64,000 bases of DNA from Oceanithermus profundus DSM 14977 (GTDB lineage: Bacteria; Deinococcota; Deinococci; Deinococcales; Marinithermaceae). The DNA lies in assembly GCF_000183745.1 (NCBI RefSeq), contig NC_014761.1, positions 2,232,001-2,296,000 on the forward strand. Direction: 5' to 3'. How positions within the stretch are numbered: position 1 is the stretch's first letter; each line of letters opens with the position of its first letter. Positions 22,993 to 49,749 of this stretch are shown piece after piece. A program made the translations under genes and the position numbers. The notes beneath the pieces are model-generated. The model made no database searches. It was not told the origin of the DNA and was given only the letters and a program-made list of their open reading frames with translations.

Positions 22993-22995
22993 GCC

Positions 22996-23211: not shown

Positions 23212-23229
23212 GGGCGTCCCTCCGATTCC

Positions 23230-23709: not shown

Positions 23710-23749
23710 CGCCTTTCATCCTACCCAGCGGCATGAGAACACCGCAGGA

Positions 23750-23789: not shown

Positions 23790-23799
23790 ACCAAAACCG

Positions 23800-27354: not shown

Positions 27355-27443
27355 AGCATCACCCCAAAGGTGCTTTTTGCGGCTTGATGCAGTATGCTTT
27401 CTCATTGTGCGGTAGAATTAAGGAATAGTAGCCGCTTGGAGGG

Positions 27444-27470: not shown

Positions 27471-28649
27471 CTACGGGCTCTCGGGTTCCACTGGGCGGGT
27501 GAGGGGGACGAGCTCTTCCGGGGCCTTGAGCTCCCCGATCTGAGAAACGGTGCCGCCGGGGCGGCCGCGGCAGGCCCCGCTGAAGCTGTGGAAGTCGATG
27601 GCGGGAATGTTGGGGTTGATCCGGCCTCCGGCCTCGACGCAGTTTTGGTTGGCCCACACCTTGGGGAACTGGAAGACGTAGTAGTTCTGGTGGCGGCTGT
27701 CGAGGCCGGTGATCTGCACCTCGATGTAGCCCTGCCCTTTTTCTTCCGTGCCGGGGCCGATGTCGGAGAGGTGGCAGAACCAGTAGTTCTTATCGCCTAC
27801 GCTGTCGCCTTCTTCCCCTATCCAGCTGCAGACCTCGGTGTAGTGGGTGCTGTTCTTGGCGGGGGCGACGGCTTGCTTCAGGGAGAGGCGCAGGGTGGCG
27901 GGGTAGATCAGCAGGTTCTGGAGCTCGGCGTTCTCCCCGGTGAAGGGGTTGTGGCGCCAGACCTCGGCAGCGGCGATCAGGGTGGCTTCGGGGGGGACAG
28001 GGCCGGGGGCGGGAAGAGTATGGGGGATGGAGCGGAGGGTGACGAGGGCGGGCAGGGGCGGGAGGAGGCCGCCGGCGGGGATGCAGAGGGTGGCCATCCG
28101 GTCGGGGGTGGTGAGGCAGCCGCCCAGGGAGGGGAGGAAGAGCTTGGTGGCGGTGGGAATCAGGGCTTTCTGTTTGGGGTTACCGGAGGCGTGAACGCTG
28201 GGGTAGGGCAGGCCGGGGAGGTAGTAGAGGGCGAGGGCCAGGGCGGCGGTGTACAGGTAGGGGCGCAGCTCGGGACGGAAACGGGGCCGAGGCGGGCCGG
28301 GGTCGGCATGGGAGGCTTGGGGAGATCGCGAGGTTTGGACGCTGCGGTAGAGGACGCGGACCGGGTGCAGCCCAGCGGCGAACAGGAGGTGCAGCGCGGC
28401 TAGGGCGAGCAGGGGAAGGACGAGGAAGAAGGCGAAGCGGAGGTGGCCCAGGAGAACGGCGAGGGGGAGGGGAAGGGCGGGGTCGGCGAGAGGGGTGGGG
28501 ACGAGGGCGGGGAGAGTGGAGCCAAGACGGTTGGAAAGGCCGGAAAGGTCGGCGTAGTTGAAGACGAGGGCGTAGAAGAGAAGGAAGGTCAGGTAGAGGA
28601 GAAAGAGGAGGAGGGTAGGCCAGAGGAGGCGGGTCTTGCCAGGTCTCAT
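27471..28649 (-). CDS. Membrane protein sharing an identical module with the adjacent lipoprotein
   Basis: 392 residues. The N-terminal 210 have three or four hydrophobic segments (about 8-30, 60-90, 128-147) and Pro-rich linkers and resemble nothing I know. Residues about 214-379 are identical to about 89-254 of the lipoprotein at 23.8-27.4 kb; only 13 residues follow. The shared module has ENAELQNLLIYPATLRLSL, CSWIGEEG, and CVEAGGR. ATG at 28649 with AAGGA. It looks like a membrane-anchored version of the lipoprotein's extracellular domain, either a real paralogue homogenised by gene conversion or a chimera from recombination that lost its own C-terminus. Confidence 0.65.
   Translation of the reverse strand: MRPGKTRLLWPTLLLFLLYLTFLLFYALVFNYADLSGLSNRLGSTLPALVPTPLADPALPLPLAVLLGHLRFAFFLVLPLLALAALHLLFAAGLHPVRVLYRSVQTSRSPQASHADPGPPRPRFRPELRPYLYTAALALALYYLPGLPYPSVHASGNPKQKALIPTATKLFLPSLGGCLTTPDRMATLCIPAGGLLPPLPALVTLRSIPHTLPAPGPVPPEATLIAAAEVWRHNPFTGENAELQNLLIYPATLRLSLKQAVAPAKNSTHYTEVCSWIGEEGDSVGDKNYWFCHLSDIGPGTEEKGQGYIEVQITGLDSRHQNYYVFQFPKVWANQNCVEAGGRINPNIPAIDFHSFSGACRGRPGGTVSQIGELKAPEELVPLTRPVEPESP
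27513..28011 (-). repeat. 499-bp perfect duplication, copy B
   Basis: Second copy of 26593-27091 within the membrane-protein gene, same strand and same reading phase. Confidence 0.95.
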
Positions 28650-34378: not shown

Positions 34379-34438
34379 CCAGCGGCGCAAGCTAGGTGCA
34401 ACCCGCGTCAGTGAACAGCAGTACGAAGCTGGACCGGC

Positions 34439-34444
34439 TACACT
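34439..34444 (+). promoter_or_regulatory. -10 box of the helicase gene
   Basis: TACACT, six bases before the helicase ATG at 34451; no Shine-Dalgarno site, so probably leaderless. Confidence 0.5.
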
Positions 34445-34450
34445 ATTACT

Positions 34451-37400
34451 ATGGCGTTGGCGCCCGACGAGTTGGTGCCCGGTTCCCGGATCGAGGGCCT
34501 CGTAGCCACTGGACCCGTAACGGTCCACGAGGTCAACCATCTCGACGGCGTAATCGAGATTACTTTTCGGGATGCTTCCGGCAGCATCCACCAGCGCCTG
34601 CTATACCCCAACGATCTAGAACAACTTCGTCTGCTGAGTGAGGTTCGTTGGCCCATGTCGGCCAGCGCGGACGATTTTCGCCTAGCCGCCGAGGCCCGCC
34701 GCCTGCGCCTGGCCCACCTCTTCGACCCCATGATGGCGGTGCACACTTCGCTGGTCGAGCCGCTTCCCCACCAAATCGAGGCCGTATACGGACACCTCTT
34801 ACAGCGCCGTCCCCTGCGCTTCCTCCTTGCCGATGACCCCGGCGCCGGCAAGACCATCATGACCGGCCTCTACATGCGCGAGTTGTTGTTGCGGGGCGAC
34901 TTAGAGAGAGCGCTGGTGGTAGCGCCCGGGGCACTGGTGGAACAGTGGCAGGACGAGCTCGACAGCAAGTTTCACCTCCCCTTCGAAATCTTCAGCCGTG
35001 AGCGCGTGGAACTGTCCCGCAGTGGAAACCCGTTCCTGGAGGGGCCGTACTGGATAGCGCGCCTCGACCAGGTTGCCCGCAACGAGGACTACCAGGAAAA
35101 ACTGACCGCCGTAGACTGGGACCTCATCGTCGTCGACGAGGCGCATAAACTTTCGGCAACGTTCTTCGGGCGCGAGCTGAAGAAGACCCAAAGGTACCGC
35201 CTGGGCGAAAAACTCTCGCAACATACGCGCAACTTTCTGCTGCTTACGGCCACGCCGCATCGGGGCAAACCGGAAGACTTCCGCTTGTTCATGGCGCTGC
35301 TCGACCCCGACCGCTTCGAGGGCCGTCCCAGGCCCGGAGCCCCCGAGACCGACGCCGAAGACCTGATGCTCCGGCGGGTCAAGGAAGACCTGGTCCGTTT
35401 CGACGGGACCCCCCTCTTCCCAGAGCGCAAAGCATACACCGTGGAGTACTCGCTTTCGGATACCGAACGGCAGCTGTACGAGGCGGTCACTACGTACGTG
35501 CGCGAAGAAATGAACCGCGCCGAAAAGCTCGACAAACGCCGCGGCAACACCGTGGGCTTCGCTCTGGCCATGCTGCAGCGCCGGCTGGCGAGCAGCCCTC
35601 AGGCCATTCACCGCTCACTGCAGCGCAGGCTCAAACGCCGCCGCGACCTGCTGGAACGGCTGGAGCGCGGCGAACCCATCCCCCAACCGGTTGCCCTGGA
35701 CGAAGAAGATCTGGTCGAGCGCTACGAGTACGCCTTCCCGGACGAAGAGGAGGGGCCCGAGTTCGAAGAACTGGCCACCTCAGCTAGAACAAAAAGGGAA
35801 TTGGAGCTCGAAATTGCCAGCCTGGAGCGGTTGGAGAAGCTGGCCCGGCGGGTGCTTCAAGCCGGTCAGGACCGCAAGTGGCAGGAGCTGGCAAGGCTCA
35901 TGGGCACCGAAGAAATCAAGGGGCGCAAGCTCGTAATCTTCACCGAACATCGCGACACCCTCGATTACTTGCGCAACCGGCTGCACACCTTCCTGGGAAA
36001 TGAAGATGCGTTGGTAACCATCCACGGCGGCATGCGCCGTGAAGAGCGCCACCACGCCCAGGCCGAGTTCACCAACAACAAAGATGTGCTCGTTCTCCTG
36101 GCCACAGACGCCGCCGGCGAGGGCATCAACTTACAGCAGGCCCACCTGCTCATCAACTACGACATCCCCTGGAACCCCAACCGGCTGGAGCAGCGTTTCG
36201 GTCGGATTCATCGCATTGGGCAGACCGAGGTTTGCCACATGTGGAACCTCGTCGCTCGCGGCACCCGCGAGGGAGACGTTTTTGCCTTGTTGCTCAAGAA
36301 GCTGGAAGCAGCAGCCGATGCACTTGGTGGCCGCGTTTTTGATGTACTGGGCAAGGCCTTTAGCGAAACTCCGCTCCACGAACTGCTCATCCAGGCCATC
36401 CGCTACGGCGAGAACCCCGAGGTTCGCAAGCGTCTGGAACGGGCCATCGAGGGGGTGGTCGACGTAACGCGCCTGCAGCAGCTGGTAGCACGCGATGCGC
36501 TGGCAACCGAGGTCTTGTCGCAAAGCCAACTGGCGCGGCTCAAAGAAGAAATGCAACGCGCAGAGGCCGCACGCCTCCAGCCGCACTACGTCGCCAGCTT
36601 TTTCCACAAGGCGTTCGAGCACCTTGGCGGCACCATGCAGCCGCGCGAGGCGGGGCGCTACGAGATAACCTTCGTGCCCCCGCTACTGCGACCATCCCGG
36701 GCACAAGGTCGACAGCAGGTGCTCAAGAAGTACGTGCGCATCACGTTCGACAAACGGCGTGTGGTCGTACCCGGCCGCCCGGTGGCCGAGTTCGTGGCCC
36801 CGGGGCACCCCCTTTTCGACGCCACCGTCACGGCCATCGAAGAAAAGTTGGGGGCAGCGCTGCAAAAAGGCGCCGTTCTGGTAGACCCCGAAGGAGAAGA
36901 CCCCAGGGTGCTGGGGGCCTTCGAGCACGACGTCCGAGACGGTCGCGACGAGGTCATATCCCAACGCCTGCTTTATGTGGAGGCAGAACCCAGTGGATCG
37001 CCGCGCAAAGCAGGGCCGGCGCCCTACCTCGACTACCGTGAGCCAACCCCGGAGGAACGGAAACTTGCGCTAAACGCCCTTGACCAAGCCACGGTCGAGC
37101 GCCTGTTGGCCGAGGCCGAGCGTTTCGTGCTGACCACCGAGGCCAAAGCACACGTGGACGAAGTTCGCAAGCGCCGAGAGGAGCATCTGAATAAAACCCT
37201 CAGCACCGTAAAAGAGCGCCTGCTCAGCGAAATTTACTACTGGGACGGCGAGGCGCAAAGGCTGGGGGAGCTCGCCAAAAAGGGCAAGAAAAATGCGGCC
37301 GTCAATGCCGAGAAAGCGCGTAGGCGCGCCGAAGAGCTAAGGGTGCGCCTGAGGCGGCGGGAGCAAGAAATTGAGGAGGCGCGCAAAATTTTTGCCGGCC

Positions 37401-37852
37401 GCCCCCACCTCTCGCTAGCCGCCTGGGTCGTGCCGCCGATGGCGAACGAAGGAGGGGGCACCGCCCTAGAGCGCGAGGTCATCGACCGGCTCGCTGTTCA
37501 AGCAGTACTGGCCCAAGAACGCGCCCTCGGCAACGAACCCCGCGAAATGCCTCACGGCAATCCGGGGTACGACATAGAATCGCGCACTCCCAGCGGCGAA
37601 CTCAGGTTCATCGAGGTCAAGGGCAAAGGGTCAGGAAAAGACACGGTCACCCTTTCCCGTACCCAGCTACTAACGGCCCTCAACAAACCCCAAAACTGGT
37701 GGCTGGTGGTGGTGGAAACCGACGGCAAGCGGGCCTTGCGCCTGCACTATCTACGCAACCCGGTCACGCGAGAGCCCGAGTTTGCCGTAACGAGCTTGAA
37801 CTTTGACTTAAGGCAGTTAATGCAAAAGGTGGTGGCTACATATGAGCTGTGA
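34451..37852 (+). CDS. SNF2-type helicase with C-terminal DUF3883 nuclease-like domain
   Basis: 1133 residues. Superfamily-2 motor: Walker A DDPGAGKT (128-135), motif II DEAH (229-232), LLTATPHRG (motif III), and motif VI QRFGRIHRIGQT in the second lobe (about 580). A long helical region (about 890-985) leads to a DUF3883-type end with a PD-(D/E)xK-like pattern: Asp1041 in GYDIES, Glu1055 and Lys1057 in FIEVKGKG. DNA translocase with a likely nuclease or DNA-binding tail, as in DISARM-like and other defence helicases. It starts the accessory island; the DUF1156 and DUF499 genes downstream are its probable partners. Confidence 0.88.
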   Translation: MALAPDELVPGSRIEGLVATGPVTVHEVNHLDGVIEITFRDASGSIHQRLLYPNDLEQLRLLSEVRWPMSASADDFRLAAEARRLRLAHLFDPMMAVHTSLVEPLPHQIEAVYGHLLQRRPLRFLLADDPGAGKTIMTGLYMRELLLRGDLERALVVAPGALVEQWQDELDSKFHLPFEIFSRERVELSRSGNPFLEGPYWIARLDQVARNEDYQEKLTAVDWDLIVVDEAHKLSATFFGRELKKTQRYRLGEKLSQHTRNFLLLTATPHRGKPEDFRLFMALLDPDRFEGRPRPGAPETDAEDLMLRRVKEDLVRFDGTPLFPERKAYTVEYSLSDTERQLYEAVTTYVREEMNRAEKLDKRRGNTVGFALAMLQRRLASSPQAIHRSLQRRLKRRRDLLERLERGEPIPQPVALDEEDLVERYEYAFPDEEEGPEFEELATSARTKRELELEIASLERLEKLARRVLQAGQDRKWQELARLMGTEEIKGRKLVIFTEHRDTLDYLRNRLHTFLGNEDALVTIHGGMRREERHHAQAEFTNNKDVLVLLATDAAGEGINLQQAHLLINYDIPWNPNRLEQRFGRIHRIGQTEVCHMWNLVARGTREGDVFALLLKKLEAAADALGGRVFDVLGKAFSETPLHELLIQAIRYGENPEVRKRLERAIEGVVDVTRLQQLVARDALATEVLSQSQLARLKEEMQRAEAARLQPHYVASFFHKAFEHLGGTMQPREAGRYEITFVPPLLRPSRAQGRQQVLKKYVRITFDKRRVVVPGRPVAEFVAPGHPLFDATVTAIEEKLGAALQKGAVLVDPEGEDPRVLGAFEHDVRDGRDEVISQRLLYVEAEPSGSPRKAGPAPYLDYREPTPEERKLALNALDQATVERLLAEAERFVLTTEAKAHVDEVRKRREEHLNKTLSTVKERLLSEIYYWDGEAQRLGELAKKGKKNAAVNAEKARRRAEELRVRLRRREQEIEEARKIFAGRPHLSLAAWVVPPMANEGGGTALEREVIDRLAVQAVLAQERALGNEPREMPHGNPGYDIESRTPSGELRFIEVKGKGSGKDTVTLSRTQLLTALNKPQNWWLVVVETDGKRALRLHYLRNPVTREPEFAVTSLNFDLRQLMQKVVATYEL

Positions 37853-37947
37853 GCTCGATCGACAAGTGCCCGATTACAAACCGCCCCCTACAGAGCTTGA
37901 TTTTGGCAGCGCCAGCTACCGTAGGGTAGCAAATCACTACCCGGGGG

Positions 37948-37977
37948 TTGATTATGTGATACTACCAGTAGTATCAT
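37948..37977 (+). promoter_or_regulatory. Candidate hicAB promoter
   Basis: TTGATT (37948-37953), 18-base spacer and TATCAT (37972-37977), 15 bases before the hicA GTG. The inverted repeat at 37958-37975 covers the spacer and part of the -10. Confidence 0.5.
37958..37975. promoter_or_regulatory. Operator palindrome of hicAB
   Basis: GATACTAC-CA-GTAGTATC, a perfect 8-2-8 inverted repeat overlapping the candidate promoter. HicB antitoxins autoregulate through such sites. Confidence 0.65.
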
Positions 37978-37992
37978 TCAACAGGAGGGGCG

Positions 37993-38247
37993 GTGAGTAG
38001 AAAAGAAAAGCTTCTCGCTAAAATGCGCCGGCTGCCCCCCGAGGCCAAGTTCGAGGACGTAGAAACGCTGCTTGCGATGTTTGGTTTTACCGAATCCCGC
38101 TCCAATGGTAGCCACCACGTTTTTTGGCATGAACTATGCGGTCGTCTGGTTGTTCCCAAGCGTGGCGGACAAAAGGTTAAGCGAACGTACATCAGACAAA
38201 TCTTGCAGCAGCTCGAAAACTGTGGACTGATCGAGCCAGGAGAATAA
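37993..38247 (+). CDS. hicA: HicA-family mRNA interferase toxin
   Basis: 84 residues, a double-stranded-RNA-binding-like fold. The catalytic His lies in SNGSHHVFWH, and GRLVVPKRG and YIRQILQQLE follow the family. HicA cleaves mRNA and tmRNA when free of HicB. GTG start at 37993 with AGGAGG. One base separates its stop from hicB. May act as an addiction or second-line module for the island. Confidence 0.88.
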   Translation: MSRKEKLLAKMRRLPPEAKFEDVETLLAMFGFTESRSNGSHHVFWHELCGRLVVPKRGGQKVKRTYIRQILQQLENCGLIEPGE

Positions 38248-38248
38248 A

Positions 38249-38677
38249 ATGGCACACGAAAGAAAACCCCTCGACTATTACCTCTCTTTGCGTTATCCAA
38301 TTACGTTGGCCCCTGAAGAAGAAGGTGGCTATACCGCCATCGTGCCCGACCTGCCTGGTTGCGTTACCGTGGGCGAAACCGCGGAAGAGGCCATGGCCAT
38401 GGCCGAAGACGCCAAGCGCCTTTGGATCGAAGACGCCTACGAGCGGGGCGAGGCCATTCCCGTTCCCAGCACAGAACGCGAATACAGCGGCCGCATTCTC
38501 TTACGTATGCCCAAATCGCTCCATCGGCGACTGGCCGAAGACGCCGAACGCGAAGGGGTTAGCTTGAATCAGTACGTGGTGGCTCTTTTGCAAGAGCGAT
38601 CGGCGTTGAGACAAGTGCTTGCGGCGCTCGACGACGGCATAGTCAAGCCGGTGCGGAGACCAAAGCAGACGGCGTAG
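38249..38677 (+). CDS. hicB: HicB-family antitoxin
   Basis: 142 residues. The N-terminal degenerate RNase-H-like HicB domain reads YTAIVPDLPGCVTVGETAEEAMAMAEDA; the C-terminal part (RILLRMPKSLHRRLAEDAEREGVSLNQYVVALL) is a ribbon-helix-helix DNA-binding domain. Neutralises HicA and probably binds the palindrome upstream of hicA. Confidence 0.9.
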   Translation: MAHERKPLDYYLSLRYPITLAPEEEGGYTAIVPDLPGCVTVGETAEEAMAMAEDAKRLWIEDAYERGEAIPVPSTEREYSGRILLRMPKSLHRRLAEDAEREGVSLNQYVVALLQERSALRQVLAALDDGIVKPVRRPKQTA

Positions 38678-38699
38678 GTTTTTGAGAGTAAACCGGCTG

Positions 38700-38832
38700 A
38701 ACAACCCCCCTCCGGCCTGCGGCCACCTCCCCCAAGGGGGAGGCTCGTTTTTGCGTCAAAGCCCACGTCCGCCGTAGTAGGCGGCAATCATTTTTCTCCC
38801 TCCCAACAGGGAGGGCCGGGGTGGGGGTTGTT
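38700..38832. mobile_element. MITE-like repeat with AACAACCCCC/GGGGGTTGTT ends, copy 1
   Basis: 133 bp with 10-bp terminal inverted repeats, inner hairpins GGCCTGCGGCC and CTCCC..GGGAGG, and a core (AAAGCCCACGTCC...GCGGCAATCATTT) shared with the copy at 40137-40336. No open reading frame. It probably moves by a transposase elsewhere. Confidence 0.6.
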
Positions 38833-39056
38833 GGTGATACCCAAGCCAAACGTCCGGCTCCAATTCGAATCCCCGGACAAGCGGACCTTGCGGCCGAGCG
38901 AGCCGGGGCCCATGCCGTGCCCAAGCCCCACGGCTCAGCAGCCGCCGTAAACAAAACCCCCCTCCCTGGAGAGGGCTTTGGTGGAAAACTCCGAAGCCAA
39001 ACGCGGGTAGGTGAGTTGTTCGCCGTATAACAGTCGTTAATAAAAGGTTGATATAT

Positions 39057-39073
39057 GTTGTTGATATAACAAC
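39057..39073. promoter_or_regulatory. Inverted repeat in the NYN gene promoter region
   Basis: GTTGTT-GATAT-AACAAC, a perfect 6-5-6 repeat. TTGTTG (39058-39063) and TATTAT (39082-39087), 18 bases apart, form a possible promoter that overlaps it. Confidence 0.45.
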
Positions 39074-39100
39074 GGTTGTGGTATTATGTCAGTACATCCC

Positions 39101-39146
39101 CCTGCTGCGCTCGCAGCAGGTGCAGGGCCGCCTCAAAAGCGGCCCT
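39101..39146 (+). other. Two adjacent hairpins in the NYN gene leader
   Basis: Stem CCTGCTGC/GCAGCAGG (39101-39120, loop GCTC) is followed by AGGGCCGC/GCGGCCCT (39124-39146, loop CTCAAAA) and then TGCGTTGTTAT. Both lie between the candidate promoter and the GTG start. Could be an attenuator or an RNA-processing site. Confidence 0.5.
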
Positions 39147-39166
39147 TGCGTTGTTATACTGATTCC

Positions 39167-39814
39167 GTGTCCAGGTTAATCGTTTACGTAGACGGGTTCA
39201 ATTTTTACTATGGCGCAGTTAAACAAACGCCGTATAAGTGGCTAAATTTCAATAAACTCTTCAAGATTTTGTTTCCCAAAGATGACCTGGTATTGGTTCG
39301 GTATTTTACTGCTAGAGTCAAAAACAACCCGCTCAACCCGGGCCAGAGGGAGCGTCAGGGGACGTATCTAAGAGCATTGAGGACGCTGCCTGATTTTGAA
39401 ATCCACGAAGGATTCTTTCTTTCGCACCCCGTAAATATGCCTGTGGCGCCTCCCGGAACCGGCTTCGCGCGGGTGCTCAAGTTCGAAGAAAAGGGGTCCG
39501 ATGTCAACCTGGCCACCTATTTGATGCTCGATGCCATTGAAGATCGCTTCGACACAGCCGTTGTGGTGAGTCACGATAGCGACCTGGCGTTGCCGATACA
39601 AATCGTGAATGAGCGCTTAGGTAAACCCGTTGGCGTGGTGGGCTATGATCCCCGATTTCAAAGGAAGTATGGGAAGAGGCCAAGAACGAGCAAGAGTTTG
39701 CGCAAAGTCGCCGCCTTTTATAAAACTTTGAGGGAGTCGGCGTTCAAACGGGCCCAGTTCCCGGATGTCGTTCAATCTCAGGACGGTCCACTACATAAAC
39801 CAAGTGGATGGTAA
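39167..39814 (+). CDS. NYN-domain (PIN-like) RNase candidate
   Basis: 215 residues of the NYN/DUF88 family. Conserved acidic residues of the PIN-like active site are Asp9 in VYVDGFNFYYG, Asp112 in KGSDVNLATYLMLD and Asp137/Asp139 in VSHDSDL. A Lys/Arg-rich stretch (about 165-185) could bind RNA. Family members are RNases. GTG at 39167 is chosen because the conserved strand starts there; the in-frame sequence before it encodes the leader hairpins. Clearly richer in A and T than core genes, so probably acquired with the island. It may be an effector of the defence system or independent of it. Confidence 0.8.
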   Translation: MSRLIVYVDGFNFYYGAVKQTPYKWLNFNKLFKILFPKDDLVLVRYFTARVKNNPLNPGQRERQGTYLRALRTLPDFEIHEGFFLSHPVNMPVAPPGTGFARVLKFEEKGSDVNLATYLMLDAIEDRFDTAVVVSHDSDLALPIQIVNERLGKPVGVVGYDPRFQRKYGKRPRTSKSLRKVAAFYKTLRESAFKRAQFPDVVQSQDGPLHKPSGW

Positions 39815-40136
39815 GGCGGCACACCCGCTTCGATGTTGAGCCCTCCAAGTGTGAACTTTCTTCTCGCGGCTTTACTGCTACCTCCCCCGAAGGCATAGAG
39901 CAATGCGTAGTGCACAGTTCGTGATACGCGGCGAACGAGGGGCTTCGAGCCAATGGCTTGTGACTCGTAGCTTGTGGCTTTTAGTTCCCTGGTGGCGGCT
40001 AAAAGCCTTCGACCCGGTTGCAGCAAAACAAAAGTGCCCTCCCCTTGGGAAGGGTTGGGGGATTGTTGGTGATGCAAGGCCCATAAGTTCAGTCTTCTAA
40101 TTGTCGACCCACCTAATTTTTACTCTCATCCAGCTA

Positions 40137-40336
40137 AACAACCCCCCCTCTGGCGGCTGCGCCGCCATCTCCCCCAAGGGGGAGGCTTGTTCTTGCGCCA
40201 AAGCCCACGTCCACCTCTTAGTAAGCGGCCATCATTTCGTTCCCTTCCCTTGGGGGCTCGGCGACTCGTTGGCGCAGTGTTCGCAGGCGTGATGTTTCCT
40301 CCCTCCCCTGGGGGAGGGCTGGGTGGGGGGGTTGTT
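40137..40336. mobile_element. MITE-like repeat, copy 2
   Basis: 200 bp with the same terminal repeats and core as 38700-38832, but about 67 bp longer in the right half. Its GGCGGCTGCGCCGCC hairpin replaces GGCCTGCGGCC of copy 1 at the same place. Confidence 0.6.
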
Positions 40337-40420
40337 GGTGATGCATAAGCCAAAAGTCCGTCGCCTCTACATGGCCAACCCACATCCCACCCCCTACACC
40401 CCACATCCTGCATTCCGGCA

Positions 40421-40470
40421 AACAACCCCCTCCGGCCTGCGGCCACCTCCCCCGAGGGGGAGGTTTGTTG
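40421..40470. repeat. Left-end fragment of the MITE-like repeat
   Basis: Starts AACAACCCCC, has GGCCTGCGGCC and CTCCCCC..GGGGGAG as in the complete copies, and stops after GGTTTGTTG. Confidence 0.55.
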
Positions 40471-40615
40471 TTTGCGCGATGTCGGAAACGGGCAGGGAAT
40501 GCCGTTGCGCGCTGGTAGAATTTGCTGGACGCATGAGCTTTAGGGGCTCGGGGTGGCTATGAAGACGAGCCCGCGAACAAATGTGGGCTATGAAATGGCT
40601 GGTTGGGGGTAGAGA

Positions 40616-43558
40616 ATGGAAGGCATGGTTGAGGCTCCCGCTCGGAAAAAGCTAATCGAGGTGGCGCTGCCGCTGGAGGACATAAACGAAGCGGCCAGGC
40701 GCGAAAAGTCCATTCGCCACGGGCACCCGTCTACCCTTCACCTCTGGTGGGCGCGGCGGCCGCTGGCGGCCGCCCGGGCGGTCATTTTTGCCCAGATGGT
40801 GGACGACCCTTCGAGCTGGCCCGAGCTGTTCGATACCGAAGAAAAGCAACACCAGGAGCGCGAGAGGTTGTTCGGCATAATCCGCGAGCTGGTCAAGTGG
40901 GAAAACACCACCAACGAAGAAGTGCTGGAAGACGCGCGAGCGGAAATTTGGCGCTCCTGGCAGCGCACTGCAAATGAGTGGCGCAAACACATCGAGGCCA
41001 AGAAGAGCGAGATAAGCGAAGAAGAGTACCAGCGGCTGTGGGAGCTGTTCGACCCCAGCAAGCTGCCCGCCTTTCACGACCCCTTCGCCGGCGGCGGTGC
41101 TTTGCCGCTAGAGGCTCAGCGGCTGGGGCTGGAGGCCTACGCCTCCGACCTGAACCCGGTGGCGGTGCTCATTAACAAAGCGATGATCGAGATACCGCCC
41201 AAGTTTGCCGGGCGGCCGCCGGTAAACCCAAAAGCGCGCGAAGACGCGGGCCTTTTTGGCAAAGACTGGAGCGGCGCCAAGGGGCTGGCCGAAGACGTGC
41301 GCTACTACGGCCAGTGGATGCGCGACGAAGCGGAAAAGCGCATTGGCTACCTCTACCCCAAGGTGAAGATAACCCCCGAGATGGTGGCCAAGCGGCCAGA
41401 CCTGAAACCCTACGAAAACCAGGAGCTAACGGTAATTGCCTGGCTGTGGGCGCGAACCGTTAAGAGCCCTAACCCGGCCTTTGCCCACGTGGAAGTGCCG
41501 CTGGTATCGAGCTTTGTGCTTTCCAGCAAGAAGGGCAAAGAAGCCTGGGTGGAGCCGGTAATCGAGGGTGACAGCTACCGCTTTGAGGTGCGGGTGGGGG
41601 AACCGCCGGAAGAGGCGAAGAAGGGGACGAAGCTTGGCAGGGGAGCGCACTTTAAATGTTTACTTTCGGGTAGTCCTATTGAGCCGGATTATATCAAATC
41701 AGAAGGGCGCGCCGGCCGTATGGGCGCAAGGCTGCTGGCCATTGTTGTTGAAGGTAACCGCGAACGGGTATATATTTCCCCATTGAACGAACATGAAGCA
41801 GTGGCCAAAGATGCCAAGCCGGGCTGGAAACCAGACGTTCCAATTCCACCCGACCCGAGAGCGCTTTGGACTCCTCCTTACGGCCTAACAACATTTGGTG
41901 ACCTTTTTACCCCACGCCAGCTCGTTGCCCTCACCACTTTTTCCGACCTGGTGCAGGAGGCCCGGGCCAAGGCTATAGAAGACGCGCGCAAGGCGGGGCT
42001 GGCGGACGACAGCAAGGGCTTGAACGATGGTGGAACCGGGGCAACGGCGTATGGAGATGCTATTTCTATATTTTTAGCCTTTGCATTAGATAAATGCGCA
42101 AATTTATGCACTTCGCTTACATCCTGGATGAGCGATAGAGGGGCATTCAGAGAAACTTTTGCACGCCAAGCGATACCCATGGTTTGGGATTATGCGGAAG
42201 CGAATCCCTTTAGCAATTCGGGCGGCAATTTTATTTCGGCAATTACTAAAGGAAGCAAAGTGATAGCTTTTTTGCCAGCGACAGTACCAGGGATAGCACT
42301 ACAAAAAGACGCGAGTATACAGAACTTAAGCTTTAATAAAACGATATCTACAGACCCACCTTACTTTGACAACATCGGCTATGCTGACCTTTCCGACTTC
42401 TTTTACGTTTGGCTAAGACGCAGCCTCAAGGGCATTTACCCAGGCTTATTCGCCACCGTGGCCACGCCCAAGGCCGAAGAGCTGGTGGCCACACCTTACC
42501 GCCACGGGGGTAAGGATGCGGCCGAAAAGTTCTTTTTGGAAGGCATGAAAAAGGCCCTGCACAACCTGGCGGAGCAGGCTCACCCGGCGTTTCCCATTAC
42601 CATTTACTACGCTTTCAAACAGTCGAAAACACAGGGCGGCGATACCAGCAGCACGGGGTGGGAAACGTTCTTGGAGGCGGTCATGCAGGCGGGGCTGTCT
42701 ATTGACGGCACCTGGCCTTTGAATACGGAAGGTGCGGGGAGAATTGTTGCAAGAGATACAAACGCTTTGGCGTCATCAATCGTTCTTGTTTGCCGCCGGC
42801 GGCCCGCGAACGCTGCGGCGGCTACCCGCCAGGAGTTCTTGCGAGCGCTGCGGAGTGAGCTACCCGCAGCGTTGCGCGCTTTGCAGGCAGGCAACATTGC
42901 CCCGGTGGACCTGGCCCAGGCTTCGATTGGGCCGGGAATGGCGGTGTATACCCGCTACCGCGAGGTGCTAGCCGCCGACGGCAGCCGGGTGAGCGTGCGC
43001 GACGCGCTGGCGCTCATCAACCAGGTGCTCGACGAGGTACTGGCCGAGCAGGAGGGCGAGTACGACGCCGCCACCCGCTGGGCGGTGGCCTGGTTCGAGC
43101 AAAGCGGTTTTGGCGAGGGTGAGTTTGGCACCGCCGAAACGCTTTCCAAGGCCAAGAACATAGACCTCGACCAGCTGGTGCAGGCGGGCCTGCTAAAAGC
43201 CGAGCGGGGTAAGGTGCGGCTCTTGCGGCCAGACGAGCTGCCAGAAGAAGTTTCGGCGGAGCCGACCGCCTGGGAGATGCTGCACCGGCTGATTTACCGG
43301 CTAAGCACCGCTGGCGAGAAAGGGGCCGGGGAGCTGCTGGCCCAGCTGGGAGGCCGCGCCGAGGCCTCGCGCGAGCTGGCCTACCGCCTCTACCAGATCG
43401 CCGAGCGCAAGGGCTGGGCCCAGGACGCGCTGGGTTACAACGCCCTGGTGCAGAGCTGGCCCGAGGTGGTAAAAGCGGCGCAAACGCAAAAGGCGCAGGC
43501 CGCGGCTCCGAAACAAGAAGGCCTATATAAAGACGGTGCAACTCAAAACGATGAATAA
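40616..43558 (+). CDS. DUF1156 adenine-type DNA methyltransferase
   Basis: 980 residues. The DUF1156 start reads [39 protein letters not shown] (about 11-49). Methyltransferase motif I-like DPFAGGG is at 155-161 and catalytic DPPY at 580-583 ([23 protein letters not shown]). The 400-residue gap between them is typical of this large family (COG1743) and probably includes target recognition. Such enzymes recur in predicted defence loci next to DUF499 ATPases, as here. By eye two stretches (about 41.64-41.82 and 42.03-42.42 kb) are much more AT-rich than the rest, which hints at a recombinant gene. Expected to mark self DNA. Confidence 0.88.
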
Positions 43559-43578
43559 CGCGGTAGCCTGGAGGCAGT

Positions 43579-46500
43579 ATGGCAATTACCAACCACGAGC
43601 GCGTAGGTAGAACCCTGCAAGCGCTGCGCGACGGCCTGGCCCCGTACGTGGCGCGCGAAGCCGAAGAAGCATTAGCCGATCAACGAATTAGCAAACAGAC
43701 GCTGGATAAATTTCTCTCCGACCCTAACCTGCGTGAGCGGCCAATAGCCGAGTGGGATGCCTCGGCCCTGCTACGCTTCATGTGGGATGCCTGGAATAGT
43801 GTCTTTCGCGACTCGCTGGGCCACACCGACCGCAGCCTGGTTTCGGAGCTGCGCGAGTGGCGCAATAGGTGGGCACACCAAAAAGCATTTTCGAGTGATG
43901 ACGTGTTACGCGTCATGGACTCGGCCGAGCGGCTGCTCAAGTCGGTGGGCGGCACCGAGCAGGCGGCGCAGATTGAGCGCGAGCGTAAGGAGCTTTTGCG
44001 CCTCATCTTTGACGAACAGTTACGGAGCGAGCAGCGCAAGGCCAAAACCAAACTGCCCGAAAGCGCCGCGGCCAGTCTGACGCCCTGGCGCGAGGTGATA
44101 GAGCCACACGACGACGTGGCCAGCGGCCACTACCAGCTGGCCGAGTTTGCCGCCGACTTGTGGCAGGTCTACAAGGGTGAGGGGGGCGACGAATACCGCG
44201 ATCCGGTGGAGTTTTTCAGGCGCACCTACCTAACCGAAAGCCTGAGCCAGCTGCTGGTGCGGGCGGCGGAGCGGGCCCAGGGCAAGGGTGGCGACCCGGT
44301 AATTCAGCTGCAAACCAACTTTGGCGGCGGCAAGACCCACTCGATGCTGGCCCTCTACCACATGTTTTCGGGCAAGCGCCCGGCCGACCTGCCGGGGGTG
44401 GAGCAGCTGCTGGCCAAGGCTGGCATAAACGAACTGCCAAAGATGAACCGGGTGGTGCTGGTGGGCAACCGGATGAAGCCCGGCAGCCCCAGCAAGAAAG
44501 AAGACGGCACCGAGGTGCACACCCTCTGGGGCGAGCTGGCCTGGCAGCTGGGGATGGCCGCGGGCGGCCTGGAAGAGGCCCGGCGGGCCTACGAGCTGGT
44601 TCGCAAAGACGACGAAAACGCCACCAATCCGGGCGAGGCGTTGCAGGAGCTACTGCAGCGCTACGCGCCGGCGCTGATTCTGATTGACGAGTGGGTGGCC
44701 TACGCCCGCCAGTTGTTGGAAGAACAACGGCTGCCCGGGGGCGATTTCGAAACCCAGTTTACTTTCGCTCAGGCGCTAACCGAGGCGGTCAAGGCGGTGC
44801 CGCGGACGCTGCTGGTGGTTTCGTTGCCGGCCTCGGACGACGCCGACGAGGTGAACGACATAGAGGTGGGCGGCCGTCGTGGCCGTGAGGCGTTGCGCCG
44901 CTTGCAGAACGTGATTGGCCGTATTGAGTCACCCTGGCGGCCGGCGACCCAGGAAGAAAGCTTTGAGATTGTGCGGCGGCGGCTCTTCAAGCCCATCCGC
45001 GACAACGAGGCGTTCAAGAAGCGCGACTTGACGGCGCGCGCCTTTGCCGACATGTACCGCGAGCAGGCCTCGGAGTTTCCGCCCGACACCCGCGAGGCCG
45101 ACTACGAAAAGCGGATCAGGGCCTCGTACCCCATTCATCCCGAGGTCTTCGACCGGCTCTACAACGACTGGTCGAGCCTGGCCCGCTTCCAGCGAACCCG
45201 CGGCGTGCTGCGGCTGATGGCGGCGGTCATTCACGTGCTCTGGGAAAACGGCGACAAGAGCCCGCTGATTATGCCCGCCTCGCTGCCGCTCGACACCGAC
45301 GAGGTGCAGCGCGAGCTGGTGCGGCACCTGCCCGACAACTGGACCCCGATTATCGACAAAGACATAGACGGCCCCAATTCGCTGCCGGTGGAACTCGACA
45401 ACACCCTGCCCAACCTGGGCCGTTACCAGGCGACGCGGCGGGTGGCGCGAACCATCTTTTTGGGCTCGGCGCCCAACGTGGGGGCAGCGCAACGGGGTCT
45501 GGAGGCGCGGCGCATAAAGCTAGGAGCGGTGATGCCCGGGGAGCAGCCGGCGGCCTTTGGCGACGCCCTGCGCCACCTGGCGAGCCGGGCAACCTATTTG
45601 TATCAGGATGGCGACCGCTACTGGTACGACACCCAGCCGACGGTGGGCAAGCTGGTGGAAGACCGGGCCGAGCAGCTAAAGCGCCAGCCCGAGCGGGTTT
45701 ATGAAGAGCTGGAGCGCCGCCTGCGCAAGGCGCTGGGCAGCAAGGGGGAGTTTGCCGCCGTGCACGCACTGCCGCGCAGCGCGGCCGACGTGCCCGACGA
45801 GATGGAGACGCGGCTGGTGGTGCTGCCGCCAGATAAGCAGTACCGTAGCGGCAACGGCGAGAGCGCGGCCATGAAGCTGGCCCGGGAGATACTGGAAAGC
45901 CGGGGTTCGGCCCCGCGTCACTTCCGCAACGCGCTGGTCTTTTTGGCGGCCGACGAAAACGACTACCACGACCTCGACGAGGCGGCGCGCCGCTACCTGG
46001 CCTGGAAGAGCGTTCTGGACGACAAGGAGCAGCTAAACCTAACCCCCTTCCAGGTGCGTCAGGCCGAGGCGCAGCTGGCCGAGGCCGAGGAGGCGCTGAA
46101 GGCGCGGATACCGCAAACCTACCGCTGGCTTTTGGTTCCTGAGCAGGCCGGGCCGCAAAGCGAAATTGAGATTCGGCCGCTCAACCTGCGCGGCCAGGGT
46201 GAGCTGGCGCCGCGGGCCGCCAAGCGGCTGCTCAAGGAAGAACAGCTGGTGCTGCAGCTGGCGCCCAACGTGTTGCGCAAACACCTGGACGAGGTGCCCC
46301 TTTGGAAAGACGGCCGCCACGTAGAGCTGGAACAGCTGGCGGCTTACTTTGCCAGCTACCCCTATTTGCAACGGCTGCAGAGCCCGCGGGTGCTGCTGGA
46401 GAGCGTGGAGCGAGGTGTGGCTCTGCTGACCTGGTACGTGGACAGCTTTGCCTACGCCGAGGGCTACGACGCGGAAAAGGGGCGTTACGTGGGCCTGGTA

Positions 46501-46941
46501 GCCGGGCAGCAACCGCCCAAGCTGCGGCAGCCGGCCGGGCTGGTGGTGCACCCCGATGTGGCCCAGGAGCAGTTGCAGCGGGAGGTTGCCACCAGCAAGC
46601 CCGGGGCGGCCGAGCCAGCCGCTGCCGGCGGCACAGGGTCGGTGACCGCCGACAAAACGGCCAGCGTGGCCGACGTGGCGGGTGAAAGAAGCGAGGCCGA
46701 CGAGCCCAAGCCGCGGCGCTTTTACGTGAAACGGCGGGTGGACCCGGCCGACCTGACCAAGGCCACCCAGGAGCTGGCCGAAGAGCTGGTGGTGCACCTG
46801 GCCAAGCTGCCGGGCGGCCGGGTAGAAATTACCATTGAAGTAGCAGCTGAAGTGGCCGACGGCATACCGGCCGAGGTGGTGCGGATCGTGCGGGAGAACG
46901 CCACGGCGCTAGGAATGGAGCCGCAGTTTGAGGAGGAGTGA
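43579..46941 (+). CDS. HEPN (Swt1-type)-DUF499 AAA ATPase
   Basis: 1120 residues. The first 120 form a Swt1-like HEPN domain with the R-x4-H motif RNRWAH (Arg95, His100). The DUF499 ATPase has Walker A FGGGKTHS (248-255) and Walker B LILIDEW (Asp370, Glu371). The C-terminal end (about 1050-1120) has an ASK/EVE-like beta-alpha domain. HEPN domains are often RNases in defence and toxin-antitoxin systems; the ATPase probably senses or remodels DNA-protein complexes. It begins 20 bases after the methyltransferase gene, so they are co-transcribed. Probably the commanding or effector component of the system. Confidence 0.86.
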   Translation: MAITNHERVGRTLQALRDGLAPYVAREAEEALADQRISKQTLDKFLSDPNLRERPIAEWDASALLRFMWDAWNSVFRDSLGHTDRSLVSELREWRNRWAHQKAFSSDDVLRVMDSAERLLKSVGGTEQAAQIERERKELLRLIFDEQLRSEQRKAKTKLPESAAASLTPWREVIEPHDDVASGHYQLAEFAADLWQVYKGEGGDEYRDPVEFFRRTYLTESLSQLLVRAAERAQGKGGDPVIQLQTNFGGGKTHSMLALYHMFSGKRPADLPGVEQLLAKAGINELPKMNRVVLVGNRMKPGSPSKKEDGTEVHTLWGELAWQLGMAAGGLEEARRAYELVRKDDENATNPGEALQELLQRYAPALILIDEWVAYARQLLEEQRLPGGDFETQFTFAQALTEAVKAVPRTLLVVSLPASDDADEVNDIEVGGRRGREALRRLQNVIGRIESPWRPATQEESFEIVRRRLFKPIRDNEAFKKRDLTARAFADMYREQASEFPPDTREADYEKRIRASYPIHPEVFDRLYNDWSSLARFQRTRGVLRLMAAVIHVLWENGDKSPLIMPASLPLDTDEVQRELVRHLPDNWTPIIDKDIDGPNSLPVELDNTLPNLGRYQATRRVARTIFLGSAPNVGAAQRGLEARRIKLGAVMPGEQPAAFGDALRHLASRATYLYQDGDRYWYDTQPTVGKLVEDRAEQLKRQPERVYEELERRLRKALGSKGEFAAVHALPRSAADVPDEMETRLVVLPPDKQYRSGNGESAAMKLAREILESRGSAPRHFRNALVFLAADENDYHDLDEAARRYLAWKSVLDDKEQLNLTPFQVRQAEAQLAEAEEALKARIPQTYRWLLVPEQAGPQSEIEIRPLNLRGQGELAPRAAKRLLKEEQLVLQLAPNVLRKHLDEVPLWKDGRHVELEQLAAYFASYPYLQRLQSPRVLLESVERGVALLTWYVDSFAYAEGYDAEKGRYVGLVAGQQPPKLRQPAGLVVHPDVAQEQLQREVATSKPGAAEPAAAGGTGSVTADKTASVADVAGERSEADEPKPRRFYVKRRVDPADLTKATQELAEELVVHLAKLPGGRVEITIEVAAEVADGIPAEVVRIVRENATALGMEPQFEEE

Positions 46942-46961
46942 CGCACGGAGGGGATGCGCGC

Positions 46962-47936
46962 ATGGCCAAACCTTCGCTGTGTAAGGACTTCCTTCGTGCC
47001 AGTTGGTGGACGTGGCACTTCATGAAGCATGGCTACAATCTACGCCTTTTGCCCGGCGAAGAAACGATAACGGACAACCTGCTCATTTACTTGGTCCACA
47101 GGCACCAAAAACAGCTGCGGATTTACAGGTTAAACAAGAGCGAGGAGAGCGAATACGGCGCCGATTGGGAGTGGTGGTTCCATACCCGCCGAACCAAAGA
47201 AGCCGATGTTTGGGTTGGGATGCGAGTACAGGCGAAAAAGCTAAATCCGTGTACTTTGCGCTACGAAAGCCTTGGGAAAGGAGAACAAGCCGACAACTTG
47301 ATTGAGCAAGTACATGAACCGCTCGACAAGTTCATACGGGATATTGCAGAAAAAAAGAAATTTATGGCGCCAATTTATGTATTTTATAACTATTGGTGCT
47401 TGGAAGCGGCCTGTCAAGAAAAGACATTACAGAAGCACGGCGAGCAGACGTGCAGCGATAATACTGTTTTTGACCATGCCGATCATCCATGCAAGAAACA
47501 CCCACCTGGATGCACAATGGCCGACGCCCGCAAGGTCCGCGAATTGATCCGCGGAAAGAAGCCAAGCCACGCTCTGAACTTTTGGAATCTTCACCAAGAA
47601 ATGTTCTGCTGGGCGGACCTTGTGTGCTGCAAAGGCGAGCGCAACCACATGAGTGGTAATGGAACCGTTGGCATCGCGGAACACGTCGAAGAGGTCTTGC
47701 GGTCGCACGGCATCGAAACCAGACATCGCGACCGAGGCCGCAACAATGACGGATACCGTAGTTTTTTAATTGAGTCCCCGCCAACTTACGTTCAAAAAAT
47801 CCTTCAGGGCGAGGAGCTGAGTGAAAGAGAGGCGCTAGAAGTTGACGCCGGTTTCGTTTGGGTGATTTCCGGAGACGACGTGCAGCAGGACGCCGCGTAC
47901 TGCTGTCTCGATTCGCTATACAAGCCGACGGTATGA
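46962..47936 (+). CDS. Putative nuclease-like protein of the island (DUF6615-like)
   Basis: 324 residues. The N-terminal third reads GEETITDNLL, then GADWEWWF (Asp68, Glu70) and VGMRVQAKKL (Gln90, Lys92), a pattern like PD-(D/E)xK nucleases with Gln for the second acid; I recall DUF6615 looking like this, without certainty. A Cys/His-rich stretch (about 150-190: CQEKT, CSDN, HADHPCKKHPPGC) may bind zinc. ATG at 46962 with GGAGGGG; an upstream GTG at 46938 overlaps the ATPase stop and is possible. Lower in GC than its neighbours. It follows the ATPase directly, so it is a likely effector. Confidence 0.65.
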   Translation: MAKPSLCKDFLRASWWTWHFMKHGYNLRLLPGEETITDNLLIYLVHRHQKQLRIYRLNKSEESEYGADWEWWFHTRRTKEADVWVGMRVQAKKLNPCTLRYESLGKGEQADNLIEQVHEPLDKFIRDIAEKKKFMAPIYVFYNYWCLEAACQEKTLQKHGEQTCSDNTVFDHADHPCKKHPPGCTMADARKVRELIRGKKPSHALNFWNLHQEMFCWADLVCCKGERNHMSGNGTVGIAEHVEEVLRSHGIETRHRDRGRNNDGYRSFLIESPPTYVQKILQGEELSEREALEVDAGFVWVISGDDVQQDAAYCCLDSLYKPTV

Positions 47937-47994
47937 CCCTTTGGGCCTGTATGGACGGCGAGGGGCGATTTTCCACCCAACCTTCGGTAGGTTG

Positions 47995-49749
47995 CTACGC
48001 CGGCTGGGCGGCGAAGCTTTCCAGCTCTTCCTTCCAGGGCCCCAGGCCCAGCTCCTCGAGCCGCTCAAGGTAGTAGCGCGCCCCGGCGGCCAGGTTGACG
48101 CGGAAGGCGGCCACCGCCTCGGGGGTGCGGTCGCGGTCGGTGCCGAACTCGCCGGCGACGACCCGCCGCAGGTAGTCGGCGTAGAGGCGCAGCTCCTTGA
48201 CGAAGACGTGGGGCCGGTTCGCCTCGAGCGCCAGCGGGCGGCGGCCGTAGATGTGGTCCACCATCTCCTCGAGCGTCCGCTCGCCCGAGAAGTAGGCCAG
48301 GTTGGGCCCGGGGCAGACGGAGACGCCGGTCTCCTTCATCTGGGGCGGGAAGCGGTACTCCAGGTGGGCGGGCTCGGCCAGGCCGGTGCAGAGGCACTGC
48401 TTCTCGAGCAGCTTTTCGATCTCGCGCCGGTAGGCGTCTTCGGAAAGGCCCAGCGCCTTCAGCTGCTGAATCTTGCGGTGCTGGTAGTTGCGGCTGGCGG
48501 TGCAGATGGGCCGCTCGGTGAACTCGGTGTTGAACTCGAGGTGGCCCTTGGGGCAGGGGCTGCCGGGGTGGCCCTCCTCGTACCACTTGCGGTTCAGGGC
48601 TTCGATCGAGGCCCCGCGCATCACGTTGAAAGGCACCCCCAGCGGCGAGGCGCCGGAGAGGTAGAGGTCCTCTTCGCCCGCGGCCGAGAGGTCCCGGCGG
48701 GTGCGCTCGTCGACCACCGTCACCTCGGGCACGAGCAGGAAGGGCGAGCCCCAGCCCACGGTGTCGAGGCCGTAGCGTTCGCGCAGCATCGCGTGCTCCT
48801 CGGCGGTGCCGACGCCCCCCTGGGCGGTGAAGCGCACCTCGGGCGGCCCCGAGGGCACCGGCCGGCCCAGCTTCTGGAGGGCTTTCTTGTAGATCTCGAA
48901 GAGCGAGGCCACGATCTCGTCGCGCTTGCTCTTCAGCTCCTCGAGGATCGGCCCCATCAGGTACCCCTGCGAGGCGAAGGCGTGGCCGCCGCAGTTGAGG
49001 CCGCTCTCGACCCGGTACTCGCTCACCCACAGCCCCTTCTTGGCCAGGAACTTGCCCTGGGTGAGGGCGCTGCGGGCGTCGGAGACCTTGAGCGCGATCT
49101 GCTTCCGGATCCGGCCCGCTTCGTCGGCGAAGAAGCCGGCGAAGTTCGCCATGTAGCTGTAGAGGCGGGCGTTGAACCCCGCCGAGAGCACGAGCACGCC
49201 CTCGAGGGTGCTCTCGGCGAAGCCGCGCAGGGCGGCGTGGGCGTCGTTGTACTCCACCGGGAGCGGCTCGCGGCCGACGAAGTTGGGCTTGTCGACCTTG
49301 GTCATGACGTTGACCTCGACGCGGCCGGGGGCCAGGCCGGCGCGGATCTCGCGCTCGAGCGCCGCGCGCTCGGCCCCCTCGGCCTCCTGCCAGCGCTCCC
49401 AGGCGCGGCGCAGCGGGCTGGCGTCCGGCAGCAGCGCCAGGTAGCGCCACAGCTCGCTGCCCGGCTCGAGCGGCGCGGTGCGCAGGGCTTCGAAGTCCTC
49501 GCGCACGAGCTCGTCCACCAGGTCCAGATAGGCGGCGGTGCGGCGGGCGCGCGAGTCGGCCTTCAGGTCCTTTTCGATGGGGGCGTAGGCCCGCCCGCGG
49601 CGGCGCGCCCAGTAGGCGCGCATGCGCTCGAGCAGGTCGTCGTCGACGATCGAGATGACCGAGGCGATGCCGTATTTGGCGATCTTCAAGGGCGTGTCCA
49701 CGGTGAACGCGGTGCCCATGACGGGGATGTGAAAGGTGTGCTGTGCCAT
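47995..49749 (-). CDS. Conserved protein of unknown function, cysteine-containing
   Basis: 584 residues, no signal or membrane segments. Glycine-rich segments ESGLNCGGHAFASQGYLMGPILEEL, FTAQGGVGTAEEHAMLRERYGLDTVGWGSPFLLVPE and YLSGASPLGVPFNVMRG resemble phosphate- or flavin-binding barrel loops. Cys residues cluster towards the C-terminus: SPCPKGHL, RPICTAS, KQCLCTG and SVCPGPN, so it might hold a metal or Fe-S cluster. ATG at 49749 with AGGAG. High GC like core genes, thus a host gene bordering the island. I cannot name a family. Confidence 0.7.
   Translation of the reverse strand: MAQHTFHIPVMGTAFTVDTPLKIAKYGIASVISIVDDDLLERMRAYWARRRGRAYAPIEKDLKADSRARRTAAYLDLVDELVREDFEALRTAPLEPGSELWRYLALLPDASPLRRAWERWQEAEGAERAALEREIRAGLAPGRVEVNVMTKVDKPNFVGREPLPVEYNDAHAALRGFAESTLEGVLVLSAGFNARLYSYMANFAGFFADEAGRIRKQIALKVSDARSALTQGKFLAKKGLWVSEYRVESGLNCGGHAFASQGYLMGPILEELKSKRDEIVASLFEIYKKALQKLGRPVPSGPPEVRFTAQGGVGTAEEHAMLRERYGLDTVGWGSPFLLVPEVTVVDERTRRDLSAAGEEDLYLSGASPLGVPFNVMRGASIEALNRKWYEEGHPGSPCPKGHLEFNTEFTERPICTASRNYQHRKIQQLKALGLSEDAYRREIEKLLEKQCLCTGLAEPAHLEYRFPPQMKETGVSVCPGPNLAYFSGERTLEEMVDHIYGRRPLALEANRPHVFVKELRLYADYLRRVVAGEFGTDRDRTPEAVAAFRVNLAAGARYYLERLEELGLGPWKEELESFAAQPA

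Follow-up and report, generated by a model that had tools for sequence, protein, structure and literature searches.

We analyzed a 64,000-nucleotide stretch of the genome of Oceanithermus profundus DSM 14977 (the window; C2:2232001–2296000 in a genome of 2,439,291 bases in two contigs) and found an inserted island of ~13.6 kb that carries the core genes of Hma, a published defense system. Hma was named by Payne 2021 (PMC8565338; 1,638 loci in 26 phyla) and renamed Type-1 bacteriophage exclusion (BREX)-related, or Type-1 BR, by Rakesh and Krishnan 2026 (PMC12839542; 2,446 taxa). Membership in Hma, intact motifs in the core proteins, the insertion itself and variable cargo between core genes were observed directly. 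As a whole, the island is probably of this known kind, inserted between kup and a convergent gene and holding exchangeable cargo between its core genes. The core is ordinary, and the interesting part is the cargo gene for an NYN-domain protein, which is preceded by a predicted two-hairpin RNA leader.

An inserted Hma island

A preliminary description of this DNA had proposed an undescribed defense system of four large genes. The helicase-DUF3883 protein, the DUF1156 methylase, the HEPN-DUF499 ATPase, a HicAB pair and the NYN protein that it listed were all present, with Pfam matches far beyond chance, and all named island genes, seven open reading frames (ORFs) in total, lie on the forward strand (Table 1). 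Three of the genes are indeed large, but the fourth encodes only 332 aa. The large trio scored 1366, 1507 and 1081 bits against the PADLOC models HmaA, HmaB and HmaC, and homologues of all three stand in one locus, as in Hma. The label "undescribed" fails because Hma (in print in 2021), Type-1 BR (2026) and earlier operon descriptions had already been published: Anantharaman 2013 (PMC3710099) placed HEPN-DUF499 in an operon with an SNF2-DUF3883 helicase and restriction–modification components, and Bell 2020 (PMC7641849) described a COG1743-DUF499-helicase operon.

The HmaA protein matched Pfam Helicase_C (2.6e-24) and NOV_C (2.9e-18), and its second-best PADLOC model was DrmD (400.7 bits). The helicase is fused to a C-terminal PD-(D/E)XK nuclease domain, the arrangement of Type-1 BR, and the nuclease is predicted to be active from its kept residues: counting the window among the homologues, as in all such counts for the core proteins, D, E and K of NOV_C were kept in 29/29, 28/29 and 29/29 sequences and DEAH of the helicase in 22/22. 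HmaB has the methyltransferase domain of Type-1 BR, DUF1156 (PF06634; 1.3e-32), with each residue of DPPY kept in 44/44 sequences. DPPY is the mark of an amino-methyltransferase, acting on N6-adenine (N6A) or N4-cytosine (N4C), and is unfit for 5-methylcytosine (m5C). HmaC combines DUF499 (4.7e-36) with HEPN_Swt1 (1.1e-31), corresponding to the Type-1 BR ATPase; Walker A GGGKT was kept in 70/70 sequences and the Walker B D in 72/72, and among homologues having the HEPN part, its R was kept in 55/57 and its H in 56/57, both being present in the window. The PADLOC models cover almost all of each core protein; the exception is HmaC, whose model begins past the HEPN part. In L140–L150, from the phylum of L067, HmaC alignments begin near residue 165 and the N-terminal HEPN is seemingly absent, while L151 and L152 have it (L and G numbers are our labels for loci and genomes).

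The insertion was seen as an empty site in all five congeners found by a genus search with a flank gene, the island being absent beside kup in each. Similarity to the congeners ends at window positions 34362–34383 on the kup side and picks up at 47990–48000 on the other flank (5/5), with 101, 83, 707, 586 and 136 bp between the flanks in L204, L205, L206, L208 and L210, respectively. The inserted DNA starts just upstream of hmaA and ends just past the fourth gene. HmaC was not found in any of the five congeners, three of whose genomes are <90% complete, and no tRNA was found within the window. As the preliminary description had noted, the island has a lower GC content than its near flanks (0.55–0.67 vs. 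mostly 0.70–0.75 in 2-kb windows).

That the island is decaying and inactive appears improbable to us. Low-GC DNA with several copies of a repeat resembling miniature inverted-repeat transposable elements (MITEs) between hmaA and hmaB would fit decay, as would the broken hmaB of the related Hma locus L129; against it, none of the seven reading frames is interrupted, and the active-site residues that were examined are retained. The gene that splits hmaB in L129 (L129:13049–13477) is inserted on the opposite strand and was read by eye as an IS200-like transposase.

Two other system types were rejected as labels for the island. PglZ, which would point to BREX, is absent from the listed matches of the island's seven proteins, the listing for the helicase covering the best 25 of 60 PADLOC families; the scan was confined to the island, without its flanks. 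For the defense island system associated with restriction–modification (DISARM), the NCBIfam DrmD match reached 377.5 bits, below the cut-off of 610, and HmaA scored far higher on the same helicase; among the matches listed, the Drm families were DrmD and DrmA, on the helicase only.

Cargo between the core genes and the leader of the NYN gene

To place the cargo, we compared the island with other Hma loci. At E ≤ 0.001, HmaC had matches in 15 of the 61 genomes of the order, our genome included, and in 22/398, 50/292, 30/345 and 35/346 genomes of the phyla of L067, L055, L049 and L105, the weak ones perhaps being other DUF499 types. The survey took in 72 loci with HmaC of at least 800 bits, 62 with at least two core genes and ten with HmaC alone that gave no junction; G051 (a short contig), a second copy in G683, one in G1114, weaker matches and L137–L139 were left out. 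The loci are not all independent, because L141/L142, L156/L157 and L175/L176 are near copies and L160 overlaps L049. With the window excluded, junctions of at least 200 nt were found in 29/38 A–B and 33/60 B–C cases (together 62/98) and in 2/3 A–C cases; the widths were taken between tblastn edges with the window proteins and may include diverged ends of core genes. In G024, the order is A–B–C with spacings of 46 and 21 nt. An ORF of at least 60 aa was called in 56 of the 62 wide A–B or B–C junctions.

In total, 132 embedded ORFs were called, some of which were dropped or corrected by eye as spurious antisense frames, and 116 proteins, three of them from the window, were scanned. Among the matches listed, the best 25 families of each scan, Pfam gave PIN (7), Fic (3), NYN (4), AAA_21/OLD-like ATPase (9) and GmrSD (3), and PADLOC gave AriA (9) and HEC-01A (up to 8). 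Since many A–B and B–C junctions are wide and ORF-bearing, HicAB and the NYN gene between hmaA and hmaB are one filling of a slot used by many Hma loci, and both appear to be exchangeable cargo rather than part of the core. That an embedded gene can serve in defense is already published, and HEC stands for "Hma-embedded candidate" (PMC12111858). HicA and HicB domains lie in adjacent genes, from which we infer a type II toxin–antitoxin pair carried as cargo. In three other Hma loci of the order (L129, L130 and L132), toxin–antitoxin-like pairs named by eye as Phd/PIN, AbrB-like/PIN and RelE-like/XRE lie between the core genes; a Fic protein was also seen there by eye.

The NYN protein is a predicted RNase of the HEC-09 family and, like the proteins for which that family is named, is embedded in Hma, between hmaA and hmaB. 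Its acidic residues D9, D112, D137 and D139 were kept in 22/22 proteins. HEC-09-like genes matched 449 plasmid records; a viral-contig search with the protein found no relative, and no solved structure matched its sequence at E ≤ 0.01. A literature search for Hma together with NYN found no paper. A second, weaker NYN paralogue (58 bits; G000:C2:306607–307008) has counterparts in most of the 61 genomes and is housekeeping-like.

The window leader of the NYN gene is predicted to fold into two strong hairpins with a short GC linker between them. This layout, with differing stems, was found ahead of the HEC-09 genes L126, L128, L212 and L227. Because MAFFT alignments put the leader stems out of register, a hand-made descriptor and hand-aligned stems were used in place of a covariance model. 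In the alignment of five leaders, made by hand and from leaders chosen for looking alike, 55/55 cells in 11 pairs were Watson–Crick, with double changes in 9/11 pairs. The layout descriptor, which was drawn up after the window leader had been seen and is therefore not blind, gave a single match on both strands of the 64 kb, at the window leader. In 5.68 Mb of other sequence (both strands counted), it gave 19 matches, of which 14 were background (~0.3 per window size) and five were HEC-09 leaders, two of these five being re-fetched copies and one of the two the window itself; L128 was missed.

We compared 22 HEC-09 leaders with 17 control leaders from the order's common NYN paralogue. The HEC-09 set came from the window, L126, L128, two other Hma-embedded loci and 17 loci of plasmids or phages; L142, nearly a duplicate of L141, was omitted. 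Each leader stretch was cut where the tblastn or HMM match begins, which is not always the start codon. A fold z below –2 was found in 14/22 HEC-09 leaders vs. 2/17 controls (Mann–Whitney p 0.003) and at least one strong hairpin in 18/22 vs. 7/17 (Fisher p 0.017). At least two strong hairpins were seen in 10/22 vs. 4/17, which is not significant (p 0.19), and a terminator-like hairpin in 3 of 22 vs. 0 of 17. Eight of the 22 leaders showed no significant fold (L182, L141, L211, L216, L217, L218, L223 and L225), which limits the case for an RNA antitoxin. In L216 (2483–2995) and L223 (1139–1501), the NYN gene directly adjoins a small protein-coding gene and no folded leader was seen, as if a protein partner had replaced the RNA.

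Tandem repeats were found in 1/22 HEC-09 leaders and 0/17 controls, and none in the window leader. The one case, L220 on a Salmonella plasmid, has a 33-nt hairpin repeat present in 2.6 copies in one tandem array; after it, just ahead of the NYN gene, stands a hairpin bordered by runs of A and T. A layout of repeat, hairpin and gene serves to recognize ToxIN (PMC8860590). A consensus scan of window positions 38950–39300 gave no promoter-like site and no forward-strand terminator. Rfam had no match on the window leader, and across the loci of eight homologues its one match above the cut-off was RNAI, a control RNA of plasmids. A literature search for an NYN-plus-RNA module found no description, with one matching review left out of account. 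Given the scan without promoter or terminator, the single case of repeats and the eight leaders without a fold, we did not file the window leader as a type III toxin–antitoxin.

By analogy, the recurrence of the layout suggests an RNA-controlled NYN toxin, like a type III toxin–antitoxin or AbiF. Tentatively, part of the HEC-09 family may be a two-part module, in which an NYN-fold RNase toxin would be kept inactive by the structured RNA of its own leader and would serve as a back-up inside the Hma operon, firing once a phage has taken over and the RNA is no longer renewed; we rate this as possible, though doubtful. Not far short of an even chance, in our judgment, the hairpins do no more than insulate an embedded gene, as plain terminators or attenuators, and have no antitoxin role. 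A hairpin with a T run stands just ahead of the gene in several homologues (e.g., L219, L222 and L226), the second hairpin of the window, with 5 T among the 9 bases that follow it, was counted terminator-like by a looser script, and both other Hma-embedded leaders (L141 and L182) are among the eight without significant fold. The stricter scan, however, gave no forward-strand terminator in the window leader, five leaders share the paired hairpins and short GC linker, and L220 has tandem hairpin repeats as well. In L212, L222, L226 and L227, the gene annotated upstream points away from the NYN gene, which places the hairpins in the latter's own leader. With the plasmid spread of the family, the leader matters more than the island core: if the RNA-controlled module holds for all or some HEC-09 leaders, a common "single-gene" defense would be an RNA-controlled toxin.

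The MITE-like repeats between hmaA and hmaB that the preliminary description reported are real, but they are not particular to the island: one copy has 46 matches in its own genome, itself included, all on the contig of the window, and island-specific MITEs were ruled out on this ground. At 38695–38815, on one such repeat, Rfam gave a weak match to the drz-agam-1 ribozyme (22.2 bits; cut-off 37), probably by chance from the hairpins. Outside the island, a second low-GC patch (0.60–0.63) holds a 1201-aa reading frame on the minus strand (23800–27405); neither this frame nor the adjacent ones (22460–23851 and 27471–28649) had a Pfam match at 1e-4.

The DUF6615 gene after hmaC

The fourth gene had been called nuclease-like, and this was borne out. 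Across PADLOC, NCBIfam and Pfam, its only match was Pfam DUF6615. The residues E41, T45, GADWEWW (GAD76) and QAK (QAK100) were kept in 35/35 DUF6615 sequences, the invariance of GADWEWW being partly by construction since it was one of the two search patterns used. The AlphaFold model (predicted local distance difference test 81.2, predicted template modeling score 0.83) has the PD-(D/E)XK core order, alpha-beta-beta-beta-alpha-beta. It matched RecU at Z 6.5–6.7 (136 residues and 3.8 Å for the match at Z 6.7) and Hjc resolvases at Z 4.5–5.8, and its top structural match was human Rep15 (Foldseek E 1.9e-4; VIA Z 7.5–7.7), although Z below 8 can reflect a common arrangement. On its motifs and the RecU and Hjc matches of the model, the predicted protein is PD-(D/E)XK nuclease-like.

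We studied the neighborhoods of DUF6615 in the best 80 of 102 confirmed loci. Hma genes lay beside it in two of these 80 (L049 and L092), and L107 has a helicase match only. Among same-strand neighbors, 48/59 were within 100 nt, with no dominant partner; single neighbors matched type I restriction endonuclease and specificity models, and on a Vibrio plasmid a type I R gene stands immediately before DUF6615. A literature search for DUF6615 found no paper.

A new four-gene system, with DUF6615 as an obligatory partner of the trio, would accord with the 4-bp overlap with hmaC, the position of the gene inside the inserted unit, the Hma genes next to it in L049 and L092, and the fact that both DUF6615-bearing genomes of the phylum also have HmaC. 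The co-conservation of the four genes expected in the preliminary description was nevertheless not found. Beyond the low count of shared loci and the Vibrio case, DUF6615 is absent from 13/15 HmaC-bearing genomes among the 61 relatives, is present in 2/111 genomes, and lies on a different contig from HmaC in G024. We rejected the four-gene unit on this co-occurrence and consider it very improbable. DUF6615 is read instead as an auxiliary nuclease in loose association with Hma rather than as its fourth subunit; it is probably translated together with hmaC, and it is shown as a nuclease-like part beside more than one kind of restriction system.

Table 1. Features of the island in window coordinates
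Feature	Position	Strand	Evidence
Inserted island, ~13.6 kb	34381..47989		Empty-site comparison with five congeners
hmaA: SNF2 helicase with C-terminal NOV_C/DUF3883 PD-(D/E)XK nuclease domain	34451..37852	+	PADLOC HmaA 1365.8 bits; Pfam Helicase_C, SNF2, NOV_C
hicA toxin gene	37993..38247	+	Pfam HicA_toxin 46.6 bits, 3.8e-12
hicB antitoxin gene	38249..38677	+	Pfam HicB_lk_antitox 59.1 bits (6.3e-16), HicB 56.7 bits
MITE/repetitive extragenic palindromic (REP)-like repeat, copy 1	38680..38860		Direct-repeat families D1, D2, D5
Predicted two-hairpin RNA leader of NYN gene	39096..39152	+	150-nt upstream region, fold z –5.35
NYN-domain predicted RNase (HEC-09)	39167..39814, GTG start (more likely); frame 39086–39814	+	PADLOC HEC-09 2.1e-44; Pfam NYN 3.8e-10
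More MITE-like repeat copies	40047..40493		Direct-repeat families D1, D2, D5, D8
hmaB: DUF1156 DNA amino-methyltransferase	40616..43558	+	PADLOC HmaB 1506.7 bits
hmaC: Swt1-like HEPN and DUF499 AAA+ ATPase	43579..46941	+	PADLOC HmaC 1081.3 bits
DUF6615 PD-(D/E)XK nuclease-like gene, 332 aa	46938..47936	+	Pfam DUF6615 2.6e-10; 4-bp overlap with hmaC

Proposed mechanism and comparison with known systems

In the mechanism that we propose, HmaB would methylate one motif in host DNA, and the ORC/Cdc6-like AAA+ protein HmaC would inspect DNA together with the HmaA motor. Unmodified DNA would allow the NOV_C nuclease of HmaA to cut, and the HEPN RNase of HmaC may act as a last resort by cutting RNA. 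DUF6615 would be an auxiliary nuclease, with HicAB and the separate RNase-type gene (HEC-09) carried as cargo. The published Type-1 BR model agrees with this mechanism (PMC12839542). The preliminary description had likewise proposed a self-marking methylase, a sensing helicase and ATPase, and action by nuclease and HEPN, all close to the published proposal.

Several points weigh against the reading of the island as a whole. The order of sensing and then cutting is taken from the literature, by analogy to BREX, and it is from other contexts that the cargo is taken to act independently of Hma. Sources disagree on the methylated base, which is m5C in Payne 2021 (PMC8565338) and N6A in the 2026 paper (PMC12839542); with the general meaning of the motif, DPPY in the predicted HmaB agrees with the N6A of the latter and not with the "m5c" of the former. 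In Pseudomonas strains of one study, HEC-09 correlated with phage susceptibility, not resistance (PMC12447246), which speaks against the NYN gene as a defense gene there.

The island shares with Hma (PMC8565338) three core proteins of nearly full length on one strand in the order A–B–C. What sets it apart is the 2.77-kb cargo separating A from B, together with a DUF6615 gene that follows C and overlaps it. Type-1 BR (PMC12839542) comprises a DUF499 ATPase often fused to HEPN, a DUF1156 methylase and an SNF2 helicase with a C-terminal active nuclease. The island has the ATPase with HEPN, the methylase and the helicase–nuclease fusion; unlike Type-1 BR, it carries HicAB, NYN and DUF6615, names that a word search of the main text of that paper did not find. 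As a defense island, it is one more clearly bounded example of a widespread system, and five empty sites come with it.

For the cargo, the likeness to HEC-09 (PADLOC-DB) is an NYN protein, placed in the island between hmaA and hmaB; the predicted two-hairpin leader, common to some homologues, goes unmentioned in the cited passages on HEC-09. ToxIN-type type III toxin–antitoxins are resembled by L220, with its tandem RNA repeats and terminator-like hairpin followed by an RNase-like gene, but NYN replaces ToxN, and the window has one two-hairpin unit, no tandem array and a doubtful terminator. AbiF is a toxic Abi protein (Abi_2) encoded beside a two-motif structured noncoding RNA, RCd22 (PMC12373285). 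The island similarly places a predicted toxin gene next to a putative structured two-hairpin RNA, although AbiF is an Abi_2 protein with an experimentally tested RNA, whereas the NYN pair is a prediction from sequence. Measured against these systems, the Hma core and its embedded defense genes were already known, and the two-hairpin leader of the NYN gene is the new lead.

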